A stretch of 64,000 nt of DNA, taken from Gammaproteobacteria bacterium (lineage in GTDB: Bacteria; Pseudomonadota; Gammaproteobacteria; SZUA-229). Under the pieces are notes generated by a model, which saw nothing but the letters and a program-made list of their open reading frames with translations, had not been told where the DNA came from and ran no database searches. A program made the translations under genes and the position numbers. Location of the stretch: the NCBI GenBank assembly GCA_029881035.1, contig JAOUNI010000008.1, positions 1-64,000 on the forward strand, written 5' to 3'. Shown here piece after piece: positions 16,072 through 20,170 of this stretch (position 1 is its first letter; each line of letters opens with the position of its first letter).

Positions 16072-17103
16072 TTGTGTATGTATTCAAGATTTCTGACCTT
16101 ATCTGTTTTCACACTTTTTAATTTATGGCTGTCTGTAGCGCAGGCAGATCAGCCTGATAGTGGCATTGGTCTTTATATTGATCAGGATATGTTAGTCCCA
16201 TTTTCCAATGAAGATCGTGATTACACCATGGGCATGGCTTTTGAGTTTTTCTGGGCGAAAGAGGAAGGTCTTTATCCTTTGGATAATCTGGTTCGTTTAA
16301 CGAGTCAATGGCTGGGCATGGATCATTCCAATAACGATATTGTTTACAGTTTTATGCTCGGTTCGGTTGTTTATACGCCGGATGACTTGTCTGATTCATT
16401 GCCTATATTTGATGACCGGCCATATTCATCTTTAATTTATCTAAGCAATAAAAGGGTGCTCACCGATCATAGAAAAGCGCTTGCTGCAGAAGTATTGATA
16501 GGTCTGTTGGGCAGTAACGTAGCCAAATCAATACAAACACAGCTGCACACTGCTTATCGTGCTGCATCGGGAAGCAATGAGCCTGTTAATCCGCAGGGAT
16601 GGTCTCACCAGATTTCGGATGGTGGGGAACCGACCATGCGCCTACGTTTATCAGGCTCGCTATTGCAACCCGACCTGTCAATGAAAGGGCGGTGGGATCT
16701 GACTACCTCTTATGGTTTATCACTGGGTTATCAAACAAACCTTAATGTAGGTGTTGCCGTTAGAGCCGGCAGTATTAAGAGCCCATTCTGGAGTCTTCCT
16801 TTTGATCCGGTTAATCGAGGGAATTTTTTACCTTCTGTGCCTGAGCAGGAGTGGTATGTCTGGTCTGCTCTGCGCTCACATCTGATTATTTATGATGCGT
16901 TATTACAGGGGCAGTTCAGAGAGAGTGACGTGCAATTCTCTGCAAATCAGATTGAGCGAGTGGTTTTTGATGGCGCTGTTGGCCTGACGACGGGTTTTGA
17001 AAAATCACAAATCACATTCTCACTAAATGCAAAAACAGCTGATCTTAAATTTATGTCCAGGCGACAGATTTGGGGTGGTTTGAACTTCCTTTTTCATTTT
17101 TAA
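16072..17103 (+). CDS. LpxR-like outer-membrane lipid A deacylase family protein
   Basis: Signal peptide; VPFSNEDRDYTMGMAFEFFW, DDRPYSSLIYLSN, QTQLHTAYRAASGSNEPVNPQGWSHQI, C-terminal FLFHF. Confidence 0.75.
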   Translation: MCMYSRFLTLSVFTLFNLWLSVAQADQPDSGIGLYIDQDMLVPFSNEDRDYTMGMAFEFFWAKEEGLYPLDNLVRLTSQWLGMDHSNNDIVYSFMLGSVVYTPDDLSDSLPIFDDRPYSSLIYLSNKRVLTDHRKALAAEVLIGLLGSNVAKSIQTQLHTAYRAASGSNEPVNPQGWSHQISDGGEPTMRLRLSGSLLQPDLSMKGRWDLTTSYGLSLGYQTNLNVGVAVRAGSIKSPFWSLPFDPVNRGNFLPSVPEQEWYVWSALRSHLIIYDALLQGQFRESDVQFSANQIERVVFDGAVGLTTGFEKSQITFSLNAKTADLKFMSRRQIWGGLNFLFHF

Positions 17104-18520: not shown

Positions 18521-20170
18521 TTAATCTATTGTATGCCCATACAAAGGCAAACCCTTCTCTGAAATTTGTCTGCGAAAATCATCACTAATAAACAACGCGG
18601 GCACTTCCAGTTCTATTGCCCGACAATGTCTTTCGATAACAGCCATGGCTTCATCACGATTATTGTATTTGGCTCTGGTTTTAAATTTGCCCTGGCCATC
18701 AGCCACGCGCCACTTCTCCTGCTGCTTCTCAAGATTGAGCCATGGCTCACGCGTATTGATGTGAGTGCTTTCAACTTTACAGTTAAACCGCTTCACCAGC
18801 TGGTTTAGTGACCTGGGAATTTGGCTATCGTAATACTGTTTGATAGATTGCAGATAACGTTGGTAGCGCATTTCCTGTATGTTACCCATCGACCAGGCAA
18901 TGCCGGCATAACCATTCTGACTCGCCTGTATTAACATGAGTTTTACAGCGAGCACTGACCATTCCTGTTTAAATGGCGCATTCGCAACCTTGCCCCAGAC
19001 GCTGGTGTCATAACCATTACGTTTGCCGGACTGGTGCCAATCACTTTGCACTTCTTCGATGAATAATATTTTTCGGCCTGCACAGTCGGTACGTGAAGTG
19101 GTTCTAATGTGTGCAAGGATATTGTGATCATAAAAATGCGCGCCGAAGAAAGTACGCTGGTAGTCGGGCAGGGTGACGAACCATTCGCGATAATCTTCAC
19201 CACCGAACAGAGTCAGGTAATCAAACTGGGTATTTGTTTTTGCACCATTGTGTATACCAAGGTGTTCACGTGCATGTTCATTGGCAACTGTTTTGGCCTC
19301 TAAACTATTTTCGTAAAATAAATTGCCATCGCTCCTGGCTATAGCCCGTCCATAGGGATCGAGCGCAAACCAGTATTTGTTGAGTGCCATCGGATGGTCA
19401 TTGTTCAGGGTTTTTATAACTCCAACACGATAGTTGCAGTAATTATCGACATATCTCAATACACAGATACATTCATGATCGAGTTTGAGTGCCGCTCGGT
19501 AAACTGCCTGATGTGGCATGCGTTGTGCCACTTCGCTAAATCCAAGGCCGCCATTTTCACCCCAGATCTGCTCGATGCTGAGTTCAAGTCGTAGGTTATT
19601 ATTCCTGTTTTTCAGCAACTGTTGTTTGCTGATTTTTGTTTCCGGCGTTTGCTTCTGCAAATAGTGTTTGATGCCTGACCAGAGGATTTCTTCTTCACGA
19701 ACACCGCTTTTTCTGAAATTTTCAATCGTCGCCAACCATTGTATGGCGCTGGCACTTTGCAACGGCAGCTGGGTTAAACGCTGTCGCAACAGGCTATATA
19801 AATGTTTTGGTGAGCTATAGCTTTTTGCGGTCAGTTGCGGCTGGTTTTCGATTAACCTGCGGCGGACCGTTTCAATGCGGCGACGCTGGTCGTCCTGCTG
19901 TATCCATCGTAACAGGGTGACTTTATCTTCATCGCTCCAGTCTTCAGCATCACGAATACTCTCTAGCGTATAACCTGAATATTCATAGTCATATTCTGTC
20001 CAGCCACGTTTTGCCTGCCCGTTATCATCAAGTTTTCGATAGATGATATCGACCAGTGCATACAGTTTACGATGCTCTGAATGTGTGCCAATACCCTGCT
20101 GTCGCAATGCATGATATTTGGGTCGATCTGTTGAAAGATCAATCACTCTTCCACTGGGCAATTTCACCAT
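18521..20170 (-). CDS. uncharacterised protein carrying an EVQSDWHQ-type domain resembling phage/plasmid polyvalent-protein modules
   Basis: ILFIEEVQSDWHQSGKRNGYDTSVWGKVANAPFKQEWSVLAVKLMLIQASQNGYAGIAWSMGNIQEMRYQRYLQSI; ORF intact over 549 codons. Confidence 0.7.
   Translation of the reverse strand: MVKLPSGRVIDLSTDRPKYHALRQQGIGTHSEHRKLYALVDIIYRKLDDNGQAKRGWTEYDYEYSGYTLESIRDAEDWSDEDKVTLLRWIQQDDQRRRIETVRRRLIENQPQLTAKSYSSPKHLYSLLRQRLTQLPLQSASAIQWLATIENFRKSGVREEEILWSGIKHYLQKQTPETKISKQQLLKNRNNNLRLELSIEQIWGENGGLGFSEVAQRMPHQAVYRAALKLDHECICVLRYVDNYCNYRVGVIKTLNNDHPMALNKYWFALDPYGRAIARSDGNLFYENSLEAKTVANEHAREHLGIHNGAKTNTQFDYLTLFGGEDYREWFVTLPDYQRTFFGAHFYDHNILAHIRTTSRTDCAGRKILFIEEVQSDWHQSGKRNGYDTSVWGKVANAPFKQEWSVLAVKLMLIQASQNGYAGIAWSMGNIQEMRYQRYLQSIKQYYDSQIPRSLNQLVKRFNCKVESTHINTREPWLNLEKQQEKWRVADGQGKFKTRAKYNNRDEAMAVIERHCRAIELEVPALFISDDFRRQISEKGLPLYGHTID

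Follow-up and report, generated by a model that had tools for sequence, protein, structure and literature searches.

Polyvalent proteins of phages and conjugative elements, in which several effector domains are joined in a single long polypeptide, have been surveyed previously (PMC5512222), and gp113 of Mycobacterium phage Alice is the named exemplar of the RimI-like GNATs found among them (PMC5512222). The gene described in this study is located at 18521..20170 on the minus strand of the window (the whole stretch of 64,000 nucleotides that was analyzed) and encodes a protein of 549 aa. The protein resembles the polyvalent proteins (PMC5512222) in having a helical block, a predicted GNAT-like core with E-E-(I/V)-Q-S-D-W-H-Q, and the PFK-W, G-Q-RY, YD, and C-terminal G-PLF motifs, all in the same order. 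In contrast to them, it is a single chromosomal protein that carries a private domain at its N-terminus and lacks further effector domains, whereas the phage forms carry extra inserts. It thus has neither the several effector domains nor the phage or conjugative-element setting of the class, and a Pfam search identified no other known domains in it. The family profile scored -3 bits on gp113, the only member compared from the two GNAT families of 2017, whereas gp113 itself shows a GNAT-like motif and matches Acetyltransf_7 weakly.

Gene context and relatives in phages and plasmids

The ORF starts with ATG and contains 549 codons, no internal stop, and the EVQSDWHQ signature. The first-pass annotation had described it as intact, and this was confirmed. 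The quoted stretches are present, and many genomes contain intact full-length orthologues. Only one copy of the domain was found in the whole genome (2.69 Mb, 99 contigs). The gene is flanked by genes for an NAD-binding 3-hydroxyisobutyrate-dehydrogenase-like protein (PF03446/PF14833) and a dCMP/cytidine-type deaminase (PF00383), with trans-2-enoyl-CoA reductase and pseudouridine synthase genes among the further neighbors. No phage genes were found among the scanned neighbors, in agreement with the earlier description of a free-standing gene between a dehydrogenase and a deaminase. The GC content of the gene (0.453) was inside the range of the neighboring genes, and an Rfam search of the window returned no matches. 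Additionally, a gene for an LpxR-like outer membrane protein (PF09982, E 8e-40) was identified at 16072-17103 of the window.

The resemblance to a phage and plasmid polyvalent-protein module, which had been proposed from the motif, was confirmed at the level of sequence. Residues ~115-549 matched the module in more than 100 viral ORFs with the blocks in the same order, and a profile of the chromosomal family matched 127 ORFs, drawn from viral contigs and from records of mobile elements. Viral ORFs contained as many as five collinear blocks (residues ~120-200, 315-345, 345-400, 400-450, and 455-490), and iteration over an enlarged set gathered 202 ORFs into one family. A pattern scan detected at least 120 stretches with EEIQSDWHQ in viral contigs. 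Judged from the 127 profile matches, the motif resemblance is far beyond chance.

Using the window protein alone, tblastn recovered phage and plasmid proteins, including a giant 'lysin' of a Nostoc phage (about 4000 aa), gp34 of Pelagibacter phage HTVC028P, which is encoded among internal-virion-protein genes, and, from a Pseudomonas plasmid, a protein of ~5000 aa in which nine ART-PolyVal stretches occur. Among the partner domains in the giant phage proteins carrying the module are LPD38, LPD39, ART-PolyVal, and helicases. A giant protein of a Dolichospermum phage (L026 5358-12578, about 2390 aa) contained at least two copies of the domain and a weak third copy further downstream.

Domain layout and database matches

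All features given below lie on the minus strand. Residues 1-113 (19832..20170) form an N-terminal domain that, by profile search and alignment, is private to the chromosomal gammaproteobacterial family. Among ~3000 ORFs, the profile of these residues matched only members of the chromosomal family and one eroded remnant, and none of the matches was viral. Full-length relatives were absent from viral contigs in two scans; therefore, the private domain was not found in viruses. It is followed by a helical block at residues ~120-190 (19601..19813; block bounds ~115-210) with the pattern S-L--R------AS--QW--T------G-R-EEI-WSG----L, which is common to phage polyvalent proteins and precedes the core in 57 of the 120 viral ORFs examined, a set that includes many truncated ORFs. 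The first-pass annotation had rightly placed the shared part around EVQSDWH, but sharing is not confined to the ~130 residues assigned there and extends to the helical block at ~115-210 and to the C-terminal part. Likewise, the N-terminal extension of roughly 300 aa that it had credited to this protein shrinks to a private part of only ~110 aa, since the phage-shared blocks begin at ~115.

The predicted GNAT-like core (β2?-β3-β4-α3-β5-α4-β6) covers residues ~325-475 (18746..19198), as assigned from predicted secondary structure, Foldseek, and the profile-profile register. In alignments, the EEVQSDWHQ motif (residues 372-380, 19031..19057) falls at the end of predicted β4. E372, E373, Q375, S376, D377, W378, H379, and Q380 were invariant in 58 sequences, an invariance that is built in for the viral copies because their alignment sample was chosen by the EEIQSDWHQ pattern. 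The chromosomal family, which was not selected by motif, largely keeps EEVQSDWHQ too, with H379 and Q380 varying in a few members.

A small strand-strand-helix module occurs twice, at residues ~264-302 (19265..19381) and again at residues ~484-518 (18617..18721), where the structure model inserts it between predicted β6 and β7. The first copy was recognized by its profile match to the second (P 7.9e-5, score 25.3; maximum of 23.1 in 60 shuffles). Both copies, which flank or interrupt the core, share W-x-V/A-x-D-x-x-G-(K/R)...EA, and look-alike inserts with W-x-V...G...F-S...A adjoin the core in phage forms. The alignment and model place a last strand and helix at residues ~518-545 (18536..18619), ending in a G-PL(F/Y)G motif that the phage copies share.

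No match to the window protein was found in the Pfam, NCBIfam, PADLOC, or PDB families, including the anti-phage defence profiles of PADLOC, and a PDB profile search with the domain alignment was also negative. Pfam GNAT families were absent from the matches listed for the 58 domain sequences and for the window protein. The Pfam LPD families, which the first-pass annotation had suggested as a place to look, likewise gave no match for the window protein and were not listed for its domain in the 58 members. No full-length match to a characterized enzyme family was found, in keeping with the initial view of the protein as lying outside such families.

Positions ~1785-2108 of PHROG 7348 (labeled 'endolysin', 2564 positions) matched the phage form of the module, and the window protein matched this profile only marginally (E 0.043). 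The label probably belongs to other parts of this long profile. A literature search for the motif string found no paper, and the EEIQSDWHQ module is without a name, a dedicated profile, or an assigned activity in the libraries searched. Three candidate matches were rejected. Four related photolyase chains in the PDB matched residues 330-436 (E 0.004-0.014), but this match depends on a short string, NGYAGIAWS, and the strands predicted for the window protein do not fit the matched part of photolyase, which is a helical region. CobB/CobQ glutamine amidotransferase (E 0.15) and YjdP (E 0.09) were under the curated cut-off.

Predicted fold and possible function

The GNAT fold consists of β1-α1-α2-β2-3-4-α3-β5-α4-β6-7. 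AlphaFold2 modeled the full protein with a pLDDT of 75.7 and a weak middle, and the C-terminal 232 residues alone with a pLDDT of 88.9 and a pTM of 0.84. The C-terminal model comprises strands at 325-333, 351-362, and 367-375 (ending in EEVQ), a short helix, a helix at 404-418, a strand at 423-426, a helix at 441-462, a strand at 466-474, the inserted strand-strand-helix, and a strand at 518-527. The order of these predicted elements is the GNAT order from β2/3 to β7.

In Foldseek searches against the PDB with both models, nearly all of the top 50 matches were GNATs, including the ICL2 C-terminal domain, EsaI, SSAT, AtaT, KacT, NatD, and Eis, although none of the matches was significant by itself (best E 0.025, TM ≤ about 0.4). 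The family profile scored 20.4 against ordinary GNATs, compared with 12.4 ± 2.0 (maximum 17.6) for shuffles, at a low probability of about 2%, and the best profile-profile alignment paired α3-β5 with α3-β5. A GNAT-like fold is moderately supported. The window protein resembles members of the GNAT superfamily such as AtaT, KacT, SSAT, EsaI, and the ICL2 C-terminal domain in predicted strand and helix order, in a predicted α4 tyrosine, and in these weak but convergent fold matches; it differs from them in its extra modules and far larger size. In the alignments, the R/Q-x-x-G-x-G/A acyl-CoA loop after β4 was absent, and HQxGRxxGY and PFK-W stand in its place. Since the protein lacks this canonical CoA-loop motif and is not matched by any GNAT profile, we call it GNAT-like and do not file it as a GNAT.

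We propose, with about an even chance of being right, that the gene encodes a stand-alone GNAT-like enzyme of acyltransferase type, the cellular counterpart, long fixed in chromosomes, of the module found within large injected proteins of phages and conjugative elements. Such an enzyme would move an acyl group from CoA, a putative donor, to an amine of a protein or RNA. E372/E373 at the end of β4 would be the candidate base and Y447 in α4 the candidate acid, with the conserved Y447-D448 positioned where GNATs often place a general-acid tyrosine. The PFK-W segment would lead into predicted helix α3, and the CoA loop would be of a putatively altered kind. Selection of the target or a partner might fall to the helical block together with the private N-terminal domain. 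Phage copies may act likewise on components of the host right after injection, and the copies kept in chromosomes may serve a useful but dispensable cellular role.

The missing CoA-loop motif would also fit a GNAT-like fold without transferase activity. The domain would then bind nucleotide, CoA, or nucleic acid or serve as a scaffold, helping larger proteins to assemble or localize, and the chromosomal form would be a regulator. The large inserts between β4 and α3 in the phage forms point the same way, as does the presence of the acetyl-CoA-binding C-terminal domain of ICL2, a regulatory domain, among the top fold matches. However, many invariant polar residues occur across the 58 sequences, as in enzymes, and dozens of charged and aromatic residues are nearly invariant between phage and chromosomal copies that are very distant from each other, a pattern more typical of an active site; we regard a pure binding module as somewhat unlikely.

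The protein could also be a different enzyme with a new α-β fold that only weakly resembles GNAT. This would be consistent with fold scores that are all under the usual confidence and with the lack of a GNAT match at the sequence level, but two separate models converge on the GNAT superfamily and the profile alignment with GNATs is in an equivalent register; we consider a new fold unlikely.

An extension of the acyltransferase proposal, which we regard as speculative and quite unlikely in this full form, is that of a bacterial enzyme for housekeeping or immunity that either descended from an effector injected by phages or gave rise to it. The proteins would then make up a GNAT-like acyltransferase family that is new and has an unusual CoA site; phages would inject them to modify host components, and some bacteria would keep a gene for one themselves, perhaps so as to modify the shared target in advance or to block the phage version. 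The EEIQSDWHQ module occurs very often in virion proteins and polyvalent proteins of phages, and the compact 549-aa solo version with its predicted acyltransferase-like fold makes the biochemistry of the module directly testable. Its biochemistry would in turn hint at how phages act on host components during the first minutes following injection.

Distribution, constraint, and origin

The 549-aa protein is a member of an undescribed chromosomal family with a patchy distribution across Gammaproteobacteria. By a separate pattern scan, eight GTDB species genomes were seen to carry full-length orthologues. With fragments counted, the genome search gave matches in 11 of the 54 genomes from the same taxonomic family as the source genome and in 8 of 370 genomes across the class, two of the latter being single-contig genomes of other families. 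Identity within the chromosomal family was 36-84% over the full length, the first 110 residues included. The dN/dS between the window gene and its closest orthologue (L002, 84% identical) was 0.066 (dS 1.34, dN 0.088); therefore, the window protein is under strong purifying selection. Gene neighborhoods, the conservation of which had been suggested as a check, were kept only between close relatives, and no conserved operon partner that would point to a substrate was found for the chromosomal family.

In some relatives the gene is eroded. A near-complete genome of the same family (G033) retains only residues 1-84 and 430-547, lying side by side and with an internal stop (G033:C9 4341-4930), and G035 and G032 contain only short pieces. 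Given these fragments together with the constraint and the spread, the gene is old, constrained where present, and dispensable. A reading of the gene as a non-functional piece that a prophage or mobile element recently left behind in the chromosome is highly improbable and largely refuted by the selection data: the phage and plasmid relatives, the patchy spread, and the eroded remnants in G033 and G035 would fit such a piece, but the gene is intact with a low dN/dS, present as a single copy without adjoining phage genes, and has a private N-terminal domain common to many genera and families.

The copy in G041, a genome assigned to the same genus, is 57% identical and groups with another genus and not with its genus mates. 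Furthermore, the copy at L154 (family f109) nests within the diversity of family f1. Transfer of the gene between lineages is likely, although many of the genomes concerned are metagenome assemblies.

A tree of 261 shared columns was midpoint rooted and included 49 viral sequences picked by the EEIQSDWHQ pattern. The 17 chromosomal proteins formed a clade (support 0.987), which was joined (0.997) by two solo proteins, one from a Caballeronia plasmid (WP_165107725.1) and one from G425, apart from all 49 viral sequences. Both are stand-alone forms of residues ~115-549 and sister to the chromosomal family, from which they differ in the absence of the private N-terminal domain. These deepest solo relatives are found on a mobilizable plasmid (Caballeronia) and near a phage-type integrase and transposases (G425), a setting consistent with a mobile element as the source of the chromosomal family, the direction being unproven. 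Domestication, as raised in the first-pass annotation, is possible, the solo proteins forming a clade separate from the sampled viral proteins, with the same unproven direction.

In comparison with the AtaT, KacT, and TacT toxin-antitoxin pairs, the window locus lacks an adjacent small antitoxin gene, and no small ORF was found in an operon position beside the 549-aa gene. The two mobile solo relatives each have a short, unrelated, and unannotated ORF directly upstream on the same strand (L164 10649-11155 and L022 8566-9558), with no match to the private N-terminal domain. These short ORFs are overlapping or 32 bases away and might encode a partner.
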